A stretch of 64,000 nt of DNA. Origin: Hemicentrotus pulcherrimus. Its lineage: Eukaryota; Echinodermata; Echinoidea; Camarodonta; Strongylocentrotidae. The stretch covers positions 98,398-162,397 of the forward strand of contig BEXV01000687.1 of NCBI GenBank assembly GCA_003118195.1. The letters run 5' to 3'. The number at the start of each line of letters is the position of its first letter. Positions within the stretch are counted from its first letter, which is position 1. Positions 14,701 through 59,434 of this stretch are shown one piece after another. Under the pieces are notes generated by a model. That model worked only from the letters and a program-made list of their open reading frames with translations, searched no databases and was not told the DNA's origin. Position numbers and translations under genes: made by a program.

Positions 14701-17700
14701 AGCCCAGGGTAAAACCAAATAACTGGTAGATGCAGGGCAAGGTCATGGTCACGTTTAGGAACTATCATATAAAGTGAGCTTAATAAGTTTCTGAATGTGG
14801 GATGAAGGGTAATATCCTCAAATACTGTTCACTGGTACATTAGGCCTGTCTATATATATACGATAGAAGCGTACTAATTATTAAAGGGACTGGGTAACAT
14901 TGTTCAGATGAGAGATAGTGGTTCTAAGGTAGTGACTTCGATGCTAGATGTACACTTAAAGATAATCTGAAAATTTGAGTGAAAACGGACCATTATTCAT
15001 GGTACAAATTGAGAAAAACTGATCTGATCGATTCCTTAATTCTCCCAACTAGGTNNNNNNNNNNNNNNNNNNNNNNNNNNNNNNNNNNNNNNNNNNNNNN
15101 NNNNNNNNNNNNNNNNNNNNNNNNNNNNNNNNNNNNNNNNNNNNNNNNNNNNNNNNNNNNNNNNNNNNNNNNNNNNNNNNNNNNNNNNNNNNNNNNNNNN
15201 NNNNNNNNNNNNNNNNNNNNNNNNNNNNNNNNNNNNGTTGAGGTGGTCTCTGAAGACGGGTCAATTGTCTTCGATACGATGCAATCAGGTAGATTCTTTG
15301 GTGAAATAAGTCTGGTCTTCAGTTGTCCAAGAACAGCCTCCATAAGGTATGGTGAACTATCCAGGCACAAACTTGTGTTAATCGTAACGCATACCTCATA
15401 CTGTAATTGTTTATAGTCTCAATTTATTTAGCTGAAGTCATATTCACAGATTAGTTAGGTTGTGTGCTCCTCATTTTGGACTTAGTGGCCAGAGCATATC
15501 TAAGAGGGATGGGAAACTGTTGAGTTTGGTTTTGGAGAAGAATTAATTTTGATAAGCTTGCCTTGCAGCAGCTGTTTTTCTGAACGTTGTGAATAGCAAA
15601 CTCATTATGTAATACCTATCAGTTGAAAAGTAAAATGCTGTTTGTATAAATACTTAAATGATATTGAATTTACCTTGGAAACCCAAGATAATCAGACTTA
15701 GAAAATATATAATGTTGCAAAGATGGAGAGAGGGGCGTGTCCTTTTAACAGTTATGTATTTTATCTTTGCTTTTACCCATCAGGGCCCAAAACAATGTGG
15801 ACATGTTTGTGCTGAACAAGGAAGATTTAGACGAAGTACTGACCCACTACCCATCCATCAAGGACCAAATCAATAAGGTTGCAGAAGATAGGATCACCGC
15901 TGTACGCAAGAGAAGCGAGGCCAAGGTTGACCAGGCAGTGAGTCCTTAAACCTCTATTTCTCAGAAACGGATTTGAAAGGCAATCCTCGGTCCTTGTCTT
16001 CAATACAGATTCAATTGATTTATATCGATGGAAACTGAAAATCAGTTGTGACTTCATACTAAAGAGAGTTTGTATAGTGGAGGACTATAGTAGATGATGT
16101 CAATCCATTGTAAATCAATTCTGATTCCTATTTCTGTTTCTGTTGAATCAGGAAATAACATAGTACCATACACAATTGGGGGCTGGGCAATCTTCCTATT
16201 TTTTCCGTAAGTACCATTTTCTTGTGCTGCAGCCCTTCAAAAAACAATTTGTCACTATCAAATATAATAATATTTTAAAGTACTGTACCAAATGTCCTTT
16301 TGATTGATGTTGAATGTGTGTGTTGTTTGTCTCAGAGCAATACCCCAAACAACAGCAATAACAACAGCATCAAGGGTAGTAGCTTCAACAGCATCGAGAA
16401 GTCTGAGAACTCCACAGCAAGCGCAAGCAGCAGCGGTCACCCATCATGCTCCTCTACAGCCGACAACGCCAGCAGCCAGACAAGACCGGAAGATGGACAT
16501 TCCACAGGAACCGCTGCAGCCGCCAGCGATAACAGGAGCGAGCCGGAGAGCCCAAGCGTCAGCAGCACGGCAGCCACGACACCAACGTCTACTGAACCAC
16601 CACCTCCAGGTGCTGCCCCCATGAAGCCGGCTCGGCAGATCCCTCAGCCTAATGCCAACAACAATGCCAGCACTGGAGAAGGCAGTGGTAACAACAACAA
16701 CCAAGGAGGAAATAATGGTGAGATTTTGTAGTATGATATTACTTACCGGTAACCGCTTTTTCAGCGATTCTGAACAAGAATGTGGATGTCAATTAGTAGT
16801 TAAGCTTGTAAATACCTTTGATTTGATTTTTCAAAAGAGAATATGTTTTGTACAGTGTGAGATTTGTGTGGTGAGAGTAAATTAAGACCTCAAGTTTTCA
16901 TTGAAATGGAGAATTCATAATTCAATTTTTGCAATGTATAAATGATGGTGCTTTGCTTCCTACATGTACATGTACCTCTTTGTACAATGATGTTAAAAAG
17001 TAAGAAAAATACGGCTTGGTAATGTAATCTATTGATTCTAGAAGTTCAAATCATCTTCACAGCCTCAAACACGCAATCTGACCCATCAGCCCCTGATAGT
17101 TCCTCCTCCACGACCCAAGTACCCACTCGCTACCCAATGCCCTTCTGCTGCATCAGACGGGACAAGAACTACCTAGAGGCACTACTCCACGCAAACCGCT
17201 TCGTTCTGAACCCTGACAGCCCTGTGGTGCGGAACCTGGCCAGACTGACATGCGTTCTGGCTGTAGCTACTTCCTGGACCATCATGTATCAGGTAATCTC
17301 TATTTTCATTATCGTAACCCAGATGGTAACATTGTCTGGGCCCTGTTCTGTGGTCTTTAGCTATAAAAGCTTGTGGGCCCAGTGTGATCAAGAGTTATGA
17401 TTTATCCACATTGTCTCATAAGACATGGTCCAGGGCCATGTTTGTATGACAGATTTGCTCTTCGCCATTAAAATGCAGTAGCTTATAGCAATTATTTTAA
17501 ATTGTTATTGGTAAGAAGTTTAATGAAACAGGGCCCATCTTTATGTACAGGCTGTTTATATTCACATGTTTCTTCTCATAGGAGTATCATTTATATACAT
17601 TGCTTGAGAGGGCAGTTTGGAATAATGAATATAACTCGCTCAGTCTTTATTTTGACATATACTTCTTCAAGGCCTCCAAGGCTGCCATATGTTCAAGAAA

Positions 17701-20700
17701 TCTGCCTACAATGACAGTCCATAAAAGAAATTTATAATGTTTGATGAAATTGAGTATTTATGACAGTTCATAATTTTGCTTATTAATGTATCACCTTCGG
17801 AAAAATGCTCATTGTATTTAATATTACTAATGTTATCAACAAACTGGGTACTTTTATGAATGCAGAAGAATTTGTGAATATTACATTTATTGATTCAGAC
17901 CATTTCTTGAAATCATCCTTTTTATGCCTCTGTTACGAAGTATCCGGAGGCATTATGTTTTCGGGTAGTCTGTCCTTCCGTACGTACGTCCGTACGTCCA
18001 GTTCTCGTGATCGCGTTATCTGAAGAACCGATTGATGGATTCCTGCCAAACTTTGGTCATGTATATATCTTGCAGAGCCAATGAACTGATTAGATTGTTT
18101 GGGTCATGAGGTCAAAGGTCACAGGGCTCATTATGTATATAAAAACAGCTCGTGATCGCGTTATCTGAAGAACCGATTGATGGATTCCTGCTAAACTTTG
18201 GTCATGTATGTATCTTGCAGAGCCGATGAACTGATTAGATTTTGGGGTCATGAGGTCAGAGGTCAAAGGTCACAGGGCTCATTATGTATGCAAAAACAGC
18301 TCGTGATCGCGTTATCTAAAGAACCGATTGATGGATTCCTGCCAAATTTGGTCATGTATGTTACTTGCAGAGCCAATGAATTGATTAGATTTTGGGGTCA
18401 TGAGGTCAAGGCCAAAGGTCATGCGGCTCATTATGTGTGCAAAAATAGCTTGTGATCACATTATCATTAGAACAGTTTGATGGATTCCTGCCAAACTTGG
18501 ATCATGTATCTATCTTGCAGAGCCAATGAACTGAGTAGATTCTTGGGTCATGAGGTCAAAGGTCATGGCTCATTATGTATTACTATTTAACTCAGGACAT
18601 CTTGCAGAGCCAATGAACTGAGTAGATGTTAGGGTCATGAGGTCAAAGATCAAAGGGTCATATACAGTATGTATATGAGAAATTGCTTGTAATCACAATA
18701 TTCTGAGAACCTGTTAATGGATTACAATTGAACTTGAATTTGAAAAAAAAATTCTGTTTTGGTTTGTTAAATTTCTCTATGACGGAGGCATTATTTTTGA
18801 CTGCGCGCAGTTGAAATTCTATCTAGTTTTTTACATCACCAATAATTGAACTTTGATTTGAATCAAATCTCAATGCAATGTTCCCAGAAATGATATTGTA
18901 TTTAGTTTCCTTTCTTTTACATGTAGGCATTCTATCAGGTTCAGAGCATGCCTTTCCTCATCTTCAGCTACGTTTGTGAATGTGTCTTCATCTTTGAGGT
19001 AAGTTCATTCACTTTTCACAGGCTCCTAGAGCCTTGTCATTTATTTGAGTTTAGATAGCTTTACCATTTATTTGAGTTATTTTTGTGTGAAGTGAAGTAA
19101 TTAAAAAATAAAATAGCCATCTAACAAAGGATGATATCTGTCCGATCAACGATTATTTTTTCATTCATTTTCTTCCAGTGCATTCCTGCTTTGTTTACAT
19201 GAGGTCCACAAATTGAACGTTTATGTAAATGAATCTACATCAGGTTTTCTGTTAGGTGTTAGTAAATTAGAAACTGAAGTAGATTCCACGATTTCCTTTT
19301 TCCTTTAGATCTACATCAAGTTACATGTCAGCAATGCAGACGAGTACGGTGCCCTTGAGAAAGACTTTGGCAAGATTTACAAGAGCTACTTACGCAAGTG
19401 GAGCGGTTTTGCCCAGGACTTGATACCCACGCTTCCCATAGAGCTCTTTGCGTTCCTTGCCCAGGGGGACAAACAATTTGCAGTGCTGTCGTTCTTGCGG
19501 TTCCGTCAGGTTATACGTCTGATGCGTGTCTCTCAGTTATTTGACAGATGGGAACAGGAACTCAATATCAAGTGAGTATGGCTAGAGGTTTCTAAAAGGG
19601 TTTGTACAATTCCTTCATCATCAGTTTCATGTTTTAGTTATCTGTGTGCAGATATGATATATTTTTGAAATTAATCATGAGAGGAATTTCTCTACCCCAT
19701 CTTGTTTTACCTTCAAAATTAAATGTTTTTATTCCTTAAAAGTGTATTACTAAAACTTCCATATAATGAAGTAAAATAATTCACACACAGCATGATTTCA
19801 GTTTGCCTATAACAGCCACGTAGAAAGACCTGAAATATGCTATCAAACATGAGAATTGGTAATTTTGTTTAAACACTGGAACAAATATTTGAATTATGAC
19901 ACCTATAACTATCTGTTGTTTTGGTGATTGGTGATGAAGGTACACACATGTCTTCTCATAATTATTCATGATACTAGTAAAAATAGAGAGCCTCCAGGAA
20001 ATCTTATGTTTATCTTCCAAAGCAGCTGTGATTACTGATGTATGTAATACAAGGCCAATATTTTTTCAAAGCACTTACAGACATTCGCATCTGCAACATA
20101 AAAATAAATACTATGAGCAGTAGATGCAGCTAGTTGTTGTATTAGAATGGGGTTAAAAATAGATTCAGTGGAACATGCCCAAACTGATTCTCACTTCTTT
20201 GTTCTATATTAATCTTCATTGCAGCATCCTAAAAGTGAGATTGACCAAGTTCCTGGTCCTACTACTGATCATAATTCATCTGTTTGCTAGCATCTGGTAC
20301 ACCATAGCATGTCCGCTGAGTAATTGCAAAAAAGGCTCATGGGCTACTATGATGGGTAAGCTTTTGCCTCTTCTATCCTCTTTTTCTTCTTTTCATCATT
20401 CTATCTCCCTCACTTTCAGTTTCTTTCTTTCATTCCATTCCCCTATCTCTTTCTCCCTCTCACCCCTCTCCCTCTCTCCCTCTATCCCTCTCTCCCTCTC
20501 TCTCCTTCTCTCATTTTATCTCTCTCGCATCTTTTTTCCTATCAATTCCTTTCTTTCCCTCCTTCCTCTCTGTATCCCTTCTCTCCTCCTTCTCACTCAA
20601 TATATCAAAGGCTCTTTAATTATTGATAAATACCCTTAGGAGTGTTTGGAAATTTAAAAAATCTGGCTTAACATTTGGGGAAAATGTGTTGTTGACTTTA

Positions 20701-51500: not shown

Positions 51501-54500
51501 AACAAATCAGCTGTTCCACAAAATTTGTTCACTTTCATTTCAGTATTTAATACTGAAATGAAAGTGAACCTATTAAAAGCAACTCATGCTACTTGTTGGT
51601 TCACTGAATTAAACTACTGACTTTATTGACAGGAAAAAACAGATTGCACATACACTACATTGACACAACGATTAAAAAAAAATGTGGAGAGAAAAATAGA
51701 AGGGAAAGAGAGAGAAAATTAATTATATAAGGATGGATAGATACGATTCTGATTTGAATATTTTATTCTGCTCACCTGGAGGTGACTCTCTTGTTTCATC
51801 TTCCGTCATAAACGAACTTGTCGAAAACGATGTATCTCCGGCTTGGTCATCTTTATGAATTAATGCATGATTGAAATTGATAATCAAACAGCGTTTTTGT
51901 TTCTAATAATTTTAATGAAACTTTATGAGTAATAGGGAAGAATTTAACCCCCCCCCCCTTCAGTTATGTTGTACTAATTTCATCTCAAACGCTGTCTATG
52001 TTTCATATTTGATTTTAAAGATAGAGATAGATCGACTGTTAATATTATGACAATCAGTAATTACAACCAGTAGAAAAATCTACAATGTTATCAAAAAAAA
52101 AATAATAGCACGTGTATTGATTACATTTTTTCTTTATATGTGATATTTAGGGAGGAACCGTTTTAGTGTGAACCTAAGCACCAATCGCTCATTACATGCT
52201 TTTGAAATGTCACTGAATAATCAAATTCAAATGTTATTATACATGTATATACCAATGACAAAATGTTGATATATATTCAAATTATGAAATATCATTCTAC
52301 TGTTGTAATGATAAAAATATTTCCCCTTCACATCACTTGTCTGTTGTTAAAGATGCTAATTTTAAAACGTATGTTTAGGTCTGGATTTAAGTTTATTTAT
52401 GTTGTTGTTGTCTGTTCGTTTGCATTTTTTGTAGGTTTGCCTTTAATGTCTTGTTTAGTTGGTGTAATTCTTTCTACTAAAGTCGTATCTAATCCAACTA
52501 AAGTATCAATGAGAGTATATGTACACAGTCGGTTAAAATTAAACGTATTCAACAAACTGCCTTTGTCAATATTCACAGGTAGATGATTAAAGAAATATAT
52601 ATTACATTTTAGCGAACTTCTCGAAATTAGCTGAACGGAGAAGTGTGAACCGAGCCATACCCCATGCCCACACACAACATTTTCCGTGATTAGTTATACC
52701 GTTTCGCGATAGTGATACCGTTTTGCTACAGTTTTACAACGAAATTGTGTGTGTGGACGCTCACTAACGATAAGTCGTATAACGAAACTAGTCTAACAAA
52801 CCGCAGGTTTGGGCATCGTTTCAAACTGAAACTCTATAAAGAATCACGCCTAATCACGCCTAATCACGGAAAATGTTGTGTGTGGACAGGGGGAGTGTAA
52901 CTAGTGTAACTAACTGGGCGGGGCTTAACGTGACCTCGAGCGAAAGGAGACCAGACCTCTTATACGACGTATCGTTAGTGAGCGTCCACGCACACAATTT
53001 CATCGTAAAATTATCGCGAAACGGTATCACTATCGCAAAACGGTATAACTAATCACGCCTAATCACGAAAAATGTTGTGTGTGAACAGGGGGTNNNNNNN
53101 NNNNNNNNNNNNNNNNNNNNNNNNNNNNNNNNNNNNNNNNNNNNNNNNNNNNNNNNNNNNNNNNNNNNNNNNNNNNNNNNNNNNNNNNNNNNNNNNNNNN
53201 NNNNNNNNNNNNNNNNNNNNNNNNNNNNNNNNNNNNNNNNNNNNNNNNNNNNNNNNNNNNNNNNNNNNNNNNNNNNNNNNNNNNNNNNNNNNNNNNNNNN
53301 NNNNNNNNNNNNNNNNNNNNNNNNNNNNNNNNNNNNNNNNNNNNNNNNNNNNNNNNNNNNNNNNNNNNNNNNNNNNNNNNNNNNNNNNNNNNNNNNNNNN
53401 NNNNNNNNNNNNNNNNNNNNNNNNNNNNNNNNNNNNNNNNNNNNNNNNNNNNNNNNNNNNNNNNNNNNNNNNNNNNNNNNNNNNNNNNNNNNNNNNNNNN
53501 NNNNNNNNNNNNNNNNNNNNNNNNNNNNNNNNNNNNNNNNNNNNNNNNNNNNNNNNNNNNNNNNNNNNNNNNNNNNNNNNNNNNNNNNNNNNNNNNNNNN
53601 NNNNNNNNNNNNNNNNNNNNNNNNNNNNNNNNNNNNNNNNNNNNNNNNNNNNNNNNNNNNNNNNNNNNNNNNNNNNNNNNNNNNNNNNNNNNNNNNNNNN
53701 NNNNNNNNNNNNNNNNNNNNNNNNNNNNNNNNNNNNNNNNNNNNNNNNNNNNNNNNNNNNNNNNNNNNNNNNNNNNNNNNNNNNNNNNNNNNNNNNNNNN
53801 NNNNNNNNNNNNNNNNNNNNNNNNNNNNNNNNNNNNNNNNNNNNNNNNNNNNNNNNNNNNNNNNNNNNNNNNNNNNNNNNNNNNNNNNNNNNNNNNNNNN
53901 NNGGGGGGGGGGGGGCACAGAATTTACACAAGGATTAAGAGTCGAGTACGTTATAACGAATCTTCTTCTTTCTTTAATAATTTAATGAAACGTCTCAGCT
54001 CCCGTGCTCGGCGCGTAGTGGGGAATTTAAATTCAGACAAGGATTACGAGCCGACAGAGAACGGATTAAGAGTCGAGTACGTTATAACGAATCTTCTTCT
54101 TTCTTTAATAATTTAATGAAACGTCTGGGCTTTTCTATTCCTTTGCCGTTTAGCAGATTTTTAAAATGTTTTCTTGTCAATTCGAGGGTGCTGAATCCAA
54201 ATCCGATGAGTGCCAGGCGCAAAACCTTGAGCATTTTCCGTAAAACGCGAAAATTCAAAATGGCCGCCAAAATGACCGGCAAATCATAAATATGCTCACT
54301 CTTTGGCCGTTTAACAGATTTTTTGATGTTTTCTTGTCACTTTGTGGGTGCTTAATCCAAATCAGATGAGTGCCAGGCGCAAAACCTTGAGCATTTCTCG
54401 TAAAATGCGAAAATCCAAAATGGCCGCCAAAATGGCCGCCAAATTATGAAAACGCTTATACTTTGACCATTTAACAGGTTATTTGATGTTTTCTTGTCAA

Positions 54501-57500
54501 TTTGAGGTTGTTGAATGCAAATCTGTTGAGTGCCCGACGCAAAACCTTCAGCATTTTGCGTTAAATGAGAATTTTCAAAGTGGTTACCAATTTATGGAAA
54601 TATTTATTCTAAGGCCATTCGACAGCTTATTTGATAGTTTCTTGTCAATTCGATGGTGCTGATTCCAAAACGATGATTGCCAGATTATAGTGTCCAAATT
54701 GTATAAGCTCATTTATCTGCAAAGAAACATTCCTTTATTAGTTTGATTTTCCGCTGTCCAATTATAATTAAAATGGCCGACAAACCCAACAATGATGTAC
54801 AATAATCTTTGCCAACTGTATGCATATAAATAGTATACTGAGTGTGTCCGTTATGTAGATGTTACTCACACATGTGATAATAACAGCAAATTGTATTTAT
54901 CCGAGTGGTCCGATATATGAGTTATGCTGCTTTAACACATGCATTTTTGCAGTGGATGCTAGTACACAGTGAACCCAGCAGGCTAGCTAGAAAACAAAGT
55001 TTATTGTGTGTAATGGGAAAGATATATGAATAAAATAATGAATAAATGAATATAAAGATGATATAGATATTCACTGTAAACTATATATTTGTCCATTATA
55101 GACAATCATTGACCATAATTGAAGACTTTTTTTAGCACCTCTATAATAACAGTGCCGAACAATGTCAAATCGCACTGGTATTCACGATTGTCACTGTCAC
55201 TGTCTTAAGATGTCTTATTCATTGGATTTTGGCATTGGACATCGCCCTTTATACAGCGCCAGTGAAGTGAAGATTGTGTGCAGCCGCACTTGGCTGTTCT
55301 GCAGTATGTCGCTCCTACACCCACAATTAATGATATTGAGGACTCTTCTGGTGCGACTGGCTGATCATTTTCGAGATATACAGGTTGAGTTGTAGAAGAC
55401 TTCTTCCTCCATCCATTCTTCAACGGGTCTAAGGCTAGGGGTACTGGCTTGCACACACAACGCCACTTGATAATGGGCACCCTGGTAAAAGTGGCTGAAA
55501 AGCAGCCATGCTTGGTGGAAGACTCATCTATTTGGGAGGGACTATAGGCGTTAGCCACCAGCCTTGCATAAATGATCCTTCGCATTGTGTCAACAGAATC
55601 ATTTGGTTCTTCTCCTTACAGGGATGTCACGTATGTCAAGCAGGATTATATTACTACATCGAGAGAGAGGCTTCAGTATTCCCAAGGAGTAGAGACTCAG
55701 AATAGCAAGGGCTAAATCTTGAATGCAGAAGCCTTTCCTACTCCATATAAACAGGAAACGGTGACGCATCCAGTCAATACTTGGGCTCCAAGAAGATTGG
55801 AGATGATTTTCTTGTGTTTCTTGATAAATTCATTGATATCGATGACTGCTCAAGTGCGGGATGTTGATTCCATTAGCCATTAGTTAGGAAATGTAGATGG
55901 TGTGTAAGAATGAACAGAATATCTGTGTCATCGCACACAACTTTGATAGATGAGTGACCATTCTTAGCCTCCTTTATCATGGGGTAGGCCATTATTACAT
56001 CTGCCTCTTCTTCAAGAGCCCCAAAACCAACAACGATGGGATGCGGATCAGGTTCAGTTACGATCAATCGTTAGCCCAGCTGTGCTTGCAAGGAACACAA
56101 CACTGATCTACGATCATCCTGATGACTTACTGCTTGTTTGCAGTTACATTTAGGATGACGTTGTGTTCTGGCAGAGGATACTCAATCTTCAGCTACAGGG
56201 CTGCAACCTTTTGCAAGTGCTGTTCGGAAAACGAACTCGATGCCACTCTCGTAGTATCTGTCAAAAACCACATGAATAACTGGACATCTGACATATTTCA
56301 TGACCTTTGCTGGAGAAGCAGGCCAAGGAACGGACCAAAGAAGAGCACATCCATTAAGAATGATAACATCTGGCACCTCTGCATTTCGTTGACTACACTC
56401 AACTTTGATTCTTGATTCAAGACAGACTTACTCATGGAATGTGCAGCACGATTCTTGTCGAACAGGGCGGGTGGATAGGGAACCAATTCATAAGAGAATA
56501 AGGTTTTGGTTGAAATCACTTCCCTAGATGTAGCTTTGATCTCGATTACCCGGGCATAGATCATCCCTGTATTGACAACTGTAGATACCTTACCTCTTGA
56601 TGACATATCAGTAACTTTTGCCATTTCGTCGACTTTCTTCGTACTTGTGTCTTGGAACCCCTTCGGCTACTTTATTTTGTACTAGTTCATCTGATCGGGT
56701 CCAATCTTGATTGGATCATCGGCAATTACTGCTGGATCATCCACAACCTGTCCAGTGTAGATGTTCACCAGGCTTGAAGGAGGGTGCTTCTCACTGTCAA
56801 AATACATCTCTACGAGTCGATAGCGCCTCGCGAATATCCTTTCTGTCAGCCGCATCTGATTTTATTTTTTTCGAGACTCTCTTCTTTGTGACAAGTGACA
56901 ACTTTCTGATCTTCCCCTTCTTGCTAGGCTTCACAGTCATTCTTCAGTTGTCCAAAGAGGCTGAGAGACAAAGCCCAGAGAGCAAGTGTAGACTCATTCC
57001 AAGTTGATGCGTTGATGCCAGAAGATCCCTTTCCATAGCGCATTTACGTCGTTTCAATGTACATATCGGACCAGATGCCTTTCCAATGCCATGCTGATGG
57101 TGCATCACATGTTCTCCATCTGAGAACTGCTTGAGTAATGCTGGTGGCAGCTAGACGTTGCATGGAAAGGAGATAAAACATCCCATAACGTGCATAATTT
57201 GTATGCCCTGAAACGAAGAAATAGATAAATAGTTCCTCCATATCTTGCAGATGGAGAGACTAGACACCCTCCCTTTCAGCTCTAAAAATCCATAAAGATG
57301 ATCATAGGCTGAACAGATCATCCACAATTTAATAGTTCGACTGCCTTTCCTGAAGAAAACACCAAATAACCTGTAAAATGGTCAAAGTATAAGCGGTTTC
57401 AAGATTCGGCGGCCATTTTGGCGGCCATTTTGGCGACCATTTTGGATTTTCGCATTTTACAAGAAATGCTCAAGGTTTTGCGCCTGGCACTCATCGGATT

Positions 57501-59434
57501 TGGATTCAGCACCCTCGAATTGACAAGAAAACACCAAATAACCTGTAAAATGGTCAAAGTATAAGCGGTTTCAAGATTCGGCGGCCATTTTGGCGGCCAT
57601 TTTGGCGACCATTTTGGATTTTCGCATTTTACAAGAAATGCTCAAGGTTTTGCGCCTGGCACTCATCGGATTTGGATTCAGCACCCTCGAACTGACAAGA
57701 AAACACCAAATAACCTGTAAAATGGTCAAAGTATAAGCGGTTTCAAGATTCGGCGGCCATTTTGGCGGCCATTTTGAATTTTCGCGTTTTACGAGAAATG
57801 CTCAAGGTTTGGCGCCTGGCACTCATCAGATTTGGATTCAGCACCCTCAAATCTACAAGAAAACATGAAATAATCTGTTAAACGGCCACAGAATAAGCAT
57901 TTTCATGATTTGGCGGCCATTTTGGCGGCCATTTTGAATTTTCGCGTTTTACGAAAAATGCTCAAGGTTTCGCGTCTGGCACTCATCGGATTTGGAATCA
58001 GCACCCTGGAATTGACAAGAAACCATCAAAAAGACATTGTATATATAAAAAACAAGGTTCAGGCCATTTCCTATGGGGCCTAGCCTGGACTATATGCCTA
58101 TGCACACACACACCATGCATGCTGATATACGCAAGGCGCTGTGTGGACGTGTGTGAATTCCAGAGCTTCTCACAGCTTTGAGTGGCTGTATGCAAATGAG
58201 TTCATACTGGGGGTCCGGAGCTGAAGTGGGAACAAAAGTTACGCGGCCGCACCCCCTATTTGTTCCTTAAAGATCGCTCTCGACATATTATAATGCTCGA
58301 AGTAATGATTTGCATTCATTGTTGTTTGTTATGTTTTCACTATAATTCCTTTGCTGACCAGTTTGATTCAAACGAGTTAATTACGGTAATCAGCTCTCGA
58401 TAAAGACCATGACGTTCAATCACACATACAAATACAAATTTGTTGACTTCTTCATTTGACTCAGAGTGGGAATAATGGATAAAGCTTTTCATATGATTCA
58501 AGTATGGTTTCCAGTAGAAAATCAATCAGATTGCTTAGACGATATGTATCGGTATCGGTCTCATAAAATTAACATCACAACCACATTCTACTTTCATCTA
58601 GCTTTTATAATGCAACTTAGACAAACCATACCAACAATTTTCCCTTTTTTGGTAAACCTCTCTTCATATTTTTAGTATAATATATATCTTTATATACATA
58701 AAGAAACACAACAAGAATTTGATGTGTTATTTTTGTATAAAATGAGATCAGAAATAGAAACTGAACGTTAGAAAAAATACAAATGTTAATAGATTTATTT
58801 CAGCTCTGAACAAGTCTTAAATAAACATGTATGAAAATAGTTTTGCTGATCTGACAATAATTAAATTAATAATTCAATTGCAAAGCAACGCGATATTTTA
58901 TCGTAATTAATAATGCAGGGTGATATTCTGATAGTGCGTAAACCTTGCTTCACTTAGTCCACACTTTTATGGACTGCCCGTTGCCAACTCATTTACCCGG
59001 TACAGATTATTTTAATCCTGCAATGAAAAGTGTCCAAAAATTAATTCTGCAATGATACGGGAAGAAAAAGATAATATGAGTATGAACTGAATTTCAACTT
59101 AGTCTTTGTTACATTATCTTTGTCATGAATATTGAAGGAGGAAGATGACACCTAGCATTCCATAGAAGTGTGAAATAACATTCTTGTTTAGTCTGGACTT
59201 AGTCCCGGCTTAACTTATTAGAATACCACCCATAGCGTGTTGCATTTTTTTGTTGTGCTCCTGGGTTCACTATTTGACGAAATAAATTGATACCGGTCAA
59301 AGTGATTTTGAAATTATTAAAGTTCTTGATGTCAACTGTTTAAGTAAATATAATATATGAATATATATTTAATAATATATACCTTCGTCTTTGGCAGGTA
59401 TAGTCTCCCTTTCAATCTCTTCTGTCACAGATTT
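42341..59434 (-). CDS. extended SDR, dihydroflavonol-reductase-like, probable pseudoenzyme (nine visible exons, 5' end not found)
   Basis: Nine minus-strand exons join in phase to 1221 coding bases (406 residues plus stop). The Rossmann start VVLVTDPSGFIGSH follows a charged N-terminal extension. GCTHVIHTSRF, KRVVLTGG, VVLGPILCEL and a C-terminal VIDMAYSCIEL follow as in DFR/cinnamoyl-CoA-reductase-like SDRs, which normally reduce small carbonyls with NADPH. Numbered from the first visible residue, the first Gly of GxxGxxG is Asp48, and the YxxxK site reads I189-C-K-D-V193, so both Tyr and Lys are missing. The usual Ser after KRVVLT is Gly. It probably cannot catalyse the standard reaction. 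The first visible exon has an acceptor, so more 5' exons exist. It is convergent with CNGK. Confidence 0.85.
42650..42890. repeat. repeat with an inverted relative at 58050-58255
   Basis: It shares (reverse complement) CATGGTGTGTGTGCATAGGC, CGCCTTGC, TATATCAGCAT and CTCCGGACCCC with 58050-58255. Class unknown. Confidence 0.75.
42891..43679. other. SDR intron, nothing recognised
   Basis: AT-rich intron sequence with one N at 43404. Confidence 0.5.
43680..43990 (-). repeat. inverted partner of 38440-38790
   Basis: The reverse complement carries the same blocks in the same order. It lies in the last intron of the minus-strand SDR gene. Confidence 0.75.
44106..44224 (-). CDS. SDR gene exon
   Basis: It reads YSFPSFKLIKPWTWINSWDN and ends YGNRSEVSWQK in phase 0. 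The G-Y-x-F-P start fits the family. Acceptor CTGTCTAG, donor GTAAGC. Confidence 0.85.
44430..44515 (+). repeat. AAT/GAT low-complexity tract
   Basis: Runs of GATGATAATAATAAT in an SDR intron, giving poly-Ile and poly-Asn shadow ORFs. Confidence 0.9.
44819..45080. mobile_element. MITE-like inverted-repeat element
   Basis: ATATATCGTCGGTGGG at the left and CCCCACCGACGATATAT at the right are inverted. Next inside, CCTCGTATCTC pairs with GAGATACAAGG. It lies in an SDR intron. Confidence 0.85.
45483..45563 (-). CDS. SDR gene exon
   Basis: It reads MNHVVASQQLSLKEMAGILE, then NEFKDM. It matches the L-x-E-M-A-x-I-L helix of the C-terminal half. Acceptor CTTCAG, donor GTAATG. Confidence 0.9.
46565..46750 (-). 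CDS. SDR gene exon: substrate-domain start
   Basis: It reads GIIKTPVVLGPILCELAEAN, with VCDVRNVAQAHVNALKVKDA later. The D-V-R-N-V-A-Q-A-H helix is typical of this SDR group. Acceptor GAGTTAG, donor GTGAGT. Confidence 0.92.
47219..47329 (-). CDS. SDR gene exon: degenerate YxxxK active-site region
   Basis: It reads EKLRNKEWTSINSALKDAIC, then KDVSEKAAREFIKSPP. Relatives have D-A-Y-C-K-S-K before the EKAA helix, so Tyr is replaced by Ile and the active-site Lys by Val. Donor GTAACT. Confidence 0.88.
47745..48150. mobile_element. MITE-like inverted-repeat element
   Basis: GGCATGGGGTAATCAAG with TTGGGGGAT at the left is mirrored by ATCCCCCAAATCTTGAT and CCCCATGCC at the right. No ORF. Confidence 0.75.
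48660..48925 (+). mobile_element. 3' tail of a non-LTR retrotransposon
   Basis: A non-coding stretch ending AATAAACTGAAACTGAACTG, the short-repeat tail usual for CR1/L2-like elements, inserted about 30 bases from an SDR donor site. No reverse transcriptase remains. Confidence 0.6.
48953..49107 (-). CDS. SDR gene exon: central beta strands
   Basis: It reads AVRGCTHVIHTSRFQDSRPA and later GGIKRVVLTGGSDLIS. Active relatives have Ser after the final strand (VVLTSS); here it is VVLTGG. The phase completes a Glu codon with the upstream exon. Confidence 0.92.
50153..50378 (-). CDS. SDR gene exon: Rossmann nucleotide-binding start
   Basis: It reads VLVTDPSGFIGSHVVHELTK, then SGYKVRGTL. SDRs of this group usually have TG at the third and fourth conserved positions; here it is TD. 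The segment after KVRGT is shorter and more divergent than usual. Donor GTAAGT. Confidence 0.92.
51390..51420. repeat. C-run and A-run
   Basis: Homopolymers of C then A in an SDR intron. Confidence 0.95.
51776..51850 (-). CDS. SDR gene exon: N-terminal extension up to the Rossmann fold
   Basis: It reads DQAGDTSFSTSSFMTEDETR then ESPP, with the next exon starting VVLVTD. The Met could be an alternative start if the upstream exon is wrong. Donor GTGAGC. Confidence 0.75.
52655..53093. mobile_element. foldback-type element, right end at an N gap
   Basis: The left part (ACACACAACATTTTCCGTGA to TCACTAACGATAAG) is the reverse complement of 52955-53080, with small changes. A third copy of the end lies at 52848-52900. 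Blocks such as ACCGTTTCGCGATAGTGATA recur in both orientations. No ORF. Confidence 0.8.
53094..53902. other. assembly gap (809 N)
   Basis: Left edge GGGGGT, right edge a run of 13 G. Flanked by a foldback element and a short duplication. Confidence 1.
53933..54125 (+). repeat. short tandem duplication
   Basis: GGATTAAGAGTCGAGTACGT and the following ~45 bases occur at 53933 and again at 54063. It could be an assembly error next to the gap. Confidence 0.8.
54127..54690 (-). repeat. left tandem array of ~160-bp units (inverted relative to 57355-58030)
   Basis: TTTTCTTGTCA recurs at about 54169, 54329, 54489 and 54639. Units share GGTGCTGAATCCAAATC, GAGTGCCAGGCGCAAAACCT and AAAATGGCCGCCAAAATGGC. 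The last unit is worn. Confidence 0.88.
54691..55204. other. inner part of the element, nothing recognised
   Basis: AT-rich, no ORF. It would follow the 3' end of the decayed gene. Confidence 0.5.
55205..57241 (-). pseudogene. decayed gene of a multicopy PIN/FEN1-like protein family, between inverted arrays
   Basis: Minus-strand fragments lie in a sensible order. Near 57200: NYARYGMFYL and IWSDMYIETT. Near 56540: IYARVIEIKA and ELVPYPPALFDKN. Near 56370: PDVIILNGCALLWSVPWPAS and VFDRYYESG. Near 56050: EEADVIMAYPMIKEAKN and VCDDTDILFILTHH. Near 55450: DPLKNGWRK and a Cys-rich tail. They are broken by frameshifts and stops. I recognise the family from memory as abundant, unassigned proteins of marine invertebrates. 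The EEAD...DDTD pair resembles the acidic XPG-I/PIN nuclease centre. No known transposase motif. Confidence 0.7.
57355..58030 (+). repeat. right tandem array of ~160-bp units
   Basis: Four units, spaced 172, 160 and 160 bases, with GGCGGCCATTTTGGCGGCCA, AGGTTTTGCGCCTGGCACTC and GGATTTGGATTCAGCACC. This is the reverse complement of the left array. Confidence 0.9.
58050..58255. repeat. repeat with an inverted relative at 42650-42890
   Basis: It lies directly after the right arm of the large element at 54127-58030. Confidence 0.75.
58256..59382. other. SDR intron, nothing recognised
   Basis: AT-rich sequence without repeats or coding pattern seen by eye. Confidence 0.5.
59383..59434 (-). CDS. 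SDR gene exon: charged N-terminal extension
   Basis: It reads KSVTEEIERETIPAKDE with a split Asp codon. Acceptor TTGTTACAG, donor GTATAT. The phase fits the next exon at 51850. It has no homology signal of its own, so it is less certain. Confidence 0.6.

Follow-up and report, generated by a model that had tools for sequence, protein, structure and literature searches.

A truncated copy of a DNA transposon with inverted subterminal arrays in Hemicentrotus pulcherrimus, most likely of the nuclease-encoding AcademX kind

In sea urchins, the TU foldback elements have inverted ends built of direct repeats. We investigated a locus resembling them, in architecture only, in a stretch of 64,000 nucleotides (C686:98398-162397, hereafter the window) of the Hemicentrotus pulcherrimus assembly (414 Mb, 4189 contigs). 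Here, a decayed gene lies between two opposed arrays of a ~160-bp unit, and the long inverted ends of tandem direct repeats place the locus in the foldback structural class. Tandem-repeat ends are also known for foldback-like elements of other superfamilies, as described in PMC4079207. According to this paper, Galileo, a foldback-like element of the P superfamily in Drosophila, has terminal inverted repeats with internal tandem repeats holding extra transposase-binding sites, and Tetris, a foldback element of Drosophila virilis, has terminal inverted repeats with ~220-bp tandem repeats; the authors found no coding copy of Tetris, the repeats of which also occur as kilobase-size free arrays (PMC4079207).

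The Academ superfamily provides the second comparison. Academ elements belong to the DDE/D class (PMC9587614) and have a mean length of 5565 bp in bivalves (PMC10294476); AcademX combines target duplications of 3 or 4 bp with a nuclease, and AcademH combines duplications of 9 or 10 bp with a helicase (PMC10045372). What the window holds, we conclude with good confidence, is a cut-and-paste DNA transposon in a truncated and non-autonomous copy, and AcademX, whose members encode a nuclease, is the most likely group. All the features that we could test agree with AcademX, as judged from the printed description of the group rather than from a comparison with reference Academ sequences. These features are the DDE/D class of the transposase core (as a model), an encoded nuclease and a 3-bp target duplication; C2945 (~7.2 kb) and C2538 (~7.8 kb) are of a size compatible with this superfamily of long elements. 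AcademH does not fit, with duplications of 3 bp here and no helicase family among the Pfam matches of two long relatives. The locus differs from AcademX in its ends, which are inverted arrays of a tandem unit; no report of an Academ element with tandem-repeat ends was found in the titles and abstract beginnings listed by searches of an open-access library without the paper defining AcademX (Kojima 2020), one search being aimed at this point. An earlier note, made from the letters of the window alone, had called the element possibly undescribed, which is doubtful, as Academ elements that encode a nuclease and make 3-4 bp duplications have been published (PMC10045372).

Tandem Repeats Finder detected tandem units of ~160/172 bp at 54141-54583 and 57353-58030 of the window. 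The left array (54141-54683, minus strand) consists of ~2.8 units and a degenerate remainder with unit similarity to ~54683, and the right array (57353-58032, plus strand) of four units; both hold tandem GGCGGCCATTTT boxes. The arrays face opposite ways, as the earlier note had observed: over 425 nt without gaps, they are 88% complementary as the two arms of an inverted pair separated by 3011 nt, and BLAST of the left against the right array gave a match on the minus strand only (E = 8e-164). Because the first two right-hand units (57353-57524 and 57525-57696) are 99% identical, a recent expansion of the array is suggested. Compared with one and the same reference unit, the remaining pair on the right scored 67-69% in ungapped and 81-89% in gapped alignment, and the two complete units on the left 80-86% (gapped).

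The arrays had been taken for the ends of the element. They are subterminal: beyond them lies a terminal inverted repeat starting TAGTCCAGGC, and copies run 65-88 bp outward from the last unit before they stop at CTAGCCTGGACTA. In the window, the right array is followed by a terminal spacer (58033-58079, plus strand) of the type found elsewhere on the 5' side of the gene (GGCCATTTCCTATGGGG) and by the right terminus CTAGCCTGGACTA (58080-58092, plus strand; TAGTCCAGGCTAG when read inward). The right end of this copy is therefore 58092, which is 62 bp further out than the boundary of 58030 proposed before. The proposed left boundary of 54127 is not an element end either. The left terminus is absent, and array similarity breaks off at ~54142, close to an assembly gap and to a segment of 69 bp that is present twice; at the place expected for the left terminus (53094-54131), the gap (53094-53902) is followed by two copies of this segment (53932-54000 and 54063-54131). 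The stretch 53903-54131 begins with a G-run at the gap edge, and the 69-bp segment is repeated 131 bp apart at 97%, possibly an assembly artefact.

Exact CTAGCCTGGACTA was found seven times in the whole genome, always at element ends, and the reversed control twice. Among the alignments listed, BLAST alignments between several copies stop within 1 base of the terminus. The two ends also differ in a consistent manner: in all four gene-bearing copies with a readable end (C686, C2360, C2945 and C3421), the GGCCATTTCCTATGGGG-type end (with variants) is on the 5' side of the gene and the CTTGCTCTC end on the 3' side.

Target duplications of 3 bp were found for four of the five copies with both ends inspectable, two of them clean, and for the window copy none can be read. 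C3523 is flanked by TTA and C118 by TAT, the latter with a degenerate left end and a boundary set by alignment. Two copies of the related C2538 family (see below) have TAA (C3520) and TTA inside a TTA repeat (C1446). C3421, with a damaged left end, shows no target duplication. The chance of a 3-bp identity is ~0.02 per copy at window composition. Apart from the flanks at C3520 itself, the joined flanks of this copy matched just stretches of 31-35 bases, and no empty site was found. Dispersed copies share TAGTCCAGGC terminal repeats, 3-bp duplications, inverted subterminal arrays and one gene in a fixed direction.

A search of the genome with one unit resulted in at least 49 matches on at least 10 contigs. 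The gene family lies between two opposed unit arrays on C686, C2360, C2945 and C3421. C3213 has the same layout as C686, but only 43-45 bases around the box match and its own unit differs; on C441, a single array is visible on one side of the gene, and the opposite side is an assembly gap. The layout of a gene inside inverted arrays, from which a mobile element had been proposed, thus recurs on five of the 10 unit-matched contigs, one of them recognised by the short box only, and the gene is present on six. The other four comprise two short copies (C3523 and C118), one copy that stops at the contig end (C3997) and one that stops at a gap (C3553); none of these matched any of the 62 family proteins compared. 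All four carry the terminus, exact on C3523, C3997 and C3553 and degenerate on C118. C3523:19-550 is a gene-less copy of 532 bp with both termini, a miniature foldback element in which hardly any sequence separates the two arrays.

We also considered that the arrays are independent satellite pieces, an alternative that the earlier note had offered, and flank a captured or host nuclease gene by chance. The number of units does vary among copies, two window units are 99% identical, and C2538 shows that members of the protein family can lack this unit. Yet all 10 unit-matched contigs have the gene and/or the specific terminus, the opposed orientation is kept, and ends and 3-bp duplications are precise, which makes a chance arrangement very improbable. 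The Tetris repeats differ in this respect, as they also form free arrays.

The gene itself (minus strand, 57337 to 55205) is interrupted by frameshifts and stops, and it had been described correctly as a decayed minus-strand gene with its motifs in order. Read over these defects, it corresponds to the later two thirds of a family protein, with 43% identity to the family member P0001 over 740 aligned columns (about residues 366-1083). The end of a DDE-like core, a FEN1/EXO1-type nuclease domain and part of a cysteine cluster are recognisable, with conserved acidic positions replaced at some places. The first part of the protein is missing at the junction of the array with the truncated gene (57338-57353). 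In the family protein, a DDE transposase-like half is followed by a FEN1/EXO1/XPG-type nuclease half and a conserved cysteine cluster, and the models suggest that the gene product joins such a transposase to such a nuclease. The AcademX nuclease is reportedly of XPG type as well.

Comparison of structure models gave a predicted Hermes/RAG1-like fold for the first half of the protein. The tool warns of a middling Z for this match, which slightly lowered our confidence in the overall explanation. Foldseek with the first half returned no match at E <= 0.001. In a viral structure library, 13 entries matched at this threshold, and most of those with a name are XRN/FEN/XPG-type nucleases. Sequence searches of the PDB returned no match for P0001 and six weak matches for alignment A1 (E >= 0.78), the named ones being TALE-repeat proteins. 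The likeness to Hermes, RAG1 and Transib, which are hairpin-forming DDE recombinases, lies in this predicted fold; to our knowledge, none of them has a C-terminal FEN1/EXO1 domain. Further, hAT elements make 8-bp and RAG-Transib elements 5-bp target duplications, so that neither group accommodates the 3-bp duplications found here. Galileo shares the tandem repeats inside inverted ends and probably differs in its transposase, which, as far as we know, is a THAP-domain protein of the P superfamily without a nuclease domain. No Pfam match to THAP or P transposase was found in the family members scanned, although a missing match does not exclude a THAP-type P transposase.

The acidic residues of the DDE-like core are nearly invariant where covered, and the nuclease half is in the same frame. 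The earlier note had left open whether the nuclease-like protein was cargo or enzyme; since one frame encodes both the transposase-like half and the nuclease, we reject the reading as cargo, and the enzyme of the element is most likely this protein. The same evidence bears on a foldback element of the TU/FB kind, in which the nuclease would be a passenger and movement would be due to an unrelated transposase. The direct repeats in the inverted ends and the short gene-less copy of 532 bp would suit such an element. We consider it improbable, given the in-frame nuclease half, the nearly invariant acidic residues and the C2538 frame, which has both halves between termini like those of the array family.

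The protein family is large, with 901 matches; among the 120 listed, named hosts range from sponge to fish. Searches with P0001 and alignment A3 returned no relatives in viral_contigs or genome_contigs. DNA scans of viral_contigs gave four stretches with a 17-mer and 10 with a 15-mer, and the four stretches of the 17-mer scan had neither unit nor gene. A literature search for DUF6589 returned no paper.

On C2538, a frame of 1478 codons with one stop encodes both protein halves between ~860-bp inverted repeats, which have no tandem array except for one 37-nt pair. Both termini begin TAGTCCAGGC, as in the array family, the right one coinciding with the contig end. Because C2538 shares these termini, the terminus goes with the protein family rather than with the array. 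Family members besides C2538 also lack the 160-bp unit in the unit search of the genome. As C2538 has plain long inverted repeats and other lineages are without the unit, we conclude that the 160-bp array marks one subfamily of the protein family. The earlier note had named a family that usually occurs without the arrays as evidence against its proposal; in part this is what we find, for the protein family as a whole.

The C2538 family is larger than the array family, as judged from genome matches. Its ~860-bp inverted repeat has 46 matches in the genome (including C1446:72690-78135), many of them short or single-ended. C95 had no convincing TAGTCCAGG-like ends in the stretches examined. A divergent relative, C2383:42500-52400, has an open frame of 1429 codons with direct repeats on both sides, the copies lying ~340 bp apart on the left and, on the right, 142/159 bp; neither a GGCGGCCATTTT box nor, at the settings used, an inverted pair was detected.

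The gene-bearing copies differ in how much of the gene they retain. The window gene begins at P0001 residue ~366, abutting the array, whereas the gene starts at residue ~313 in both C2360 and C3421, which share the array-gene junction; C2945 reaches the N-terminal part (P0024 residues 67-336). Since C2360 and C3421 share one internal deletion at different places, movement with the enzyme supplied in trans is suggested.

Ten GGCGGCCATTTT boxes, with one mismatch allowed, lie in the right array (57408-57935, plus strand; starts 57408, 57420, 57432, 57580, 57592, 57604, 57752, 57764, 57912 and 57924) and three in the opposite orientation in the left array (54257-54440, minus strand; starts 54257, 54417 and 54429). 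A single extra AAAATGGCCGCC-type box (54770-54781, minus strand) is located between the left array and the gene, and there is no box in the 57.9 kb of the window outside the element. Boxes were counted at 16 loci from the 24 contigs matched by P0001, with flanks of varying length. Within 3 kb of the gene, we found 79 sites with at most one mismatch, of which 73 are oriented as expected (38 on the left, minus; 35 on the right, plus) and six are not. They occur at 13 of the 16 loci, the exceptions being C1191, C2383 and C3965. The box was picked from the window array, and the five loci of the 160-bp family are therefore not independent; without them, 27 of 32 sites, at eight loci, are concordant. 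Over 200 shuffled boxes, the mean was 0.5 sites; a single shuffle gave as many as 77, and a single member of the set was a rotation of the tandem box. The string common to the lineages with 160-bp units, ~370-bp units and plain terminal inverted repeats is GGCGGCCATTTTG, the units differing otherwise. TGCTCAA follows 20-22 bases past GGCGGCCATTTTG in the 160-bp units and in some of the ~370-bp ones.

The boxes are mirrored on the two sides of the gene, and the GGCGGCCATTTTG box may represent an enzyme-binding site multiplied at both ends of the element, as reported for Galileo (PMC4079207). As the main alternative, the boxes could bind a host factor of the YY1 type for expression or silencing, within the same element. 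The box resembles YY1-type sites in containing CCATTTT, a YY1 core, and other mobile elements carry repeated sites for host factors. Mirrored boxes at both ends (73 of 79 sites) are predicted by end recognition but not by a promoter role, and we regard the host-factor explanation as rather unlikely.

If the boxes serve end recognition, the transposase half would recognise the iterated GGCGGCCATTTTG boxes, and many boxes would provide strong recognition, as proposed for Galileo. It would cut at TAGTCC and insert into an AT-rich 3-bp target, while the nuclease half would process whatever hairpin, flap or gap the cut leaves. Unequal exchange or slippage could alter array length and give the ends their satellite look. 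The window copy has lost the beginning of its gene; any later move would have required enzyme from elsewhere, and the copy is now dead. Tentatively, and with considerable doubt, we propose that a RAG1/Hermes-type core, which would leave hairpins, is fused to a FEN1/EXO1-type nuclease that opens or trims them and in this way sets the 3-bp duplication, and that the ends are a self-amplifying array of binding boxes in which selection for end recognition builds satellite-like DNA.

A large animal protein family, mostly unnamed in the sources, is hereby tied to real transposon ends by a terminal motif and 3-bp target duplications, and models suggest that this family combines a RAG1/Hermes-like transposase and a FEN1/EXO1 nuclease in one protein. 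Additionally, transposon ends may turn into satellite-like arrays by way of iterated binding boxes, which is open to test and has been argued for Drosophila foldback elements (PMC4079207).

Two further features of the window were noted. At 18004-18559, 3.7 copies of a 150-bp tandem unit (88% match), unrelated to the element described here, are possibly part of another mobile element. An exon-like stretch at 15240-15413 (plus strand), adjoining an assembly gap (15055-15236), has a sub-threshold match to a cyclic nucleotide-binding domain (E = 2e-4) and is perhaps a fragment of a host cyclic-nucleotide-gated channel gene.
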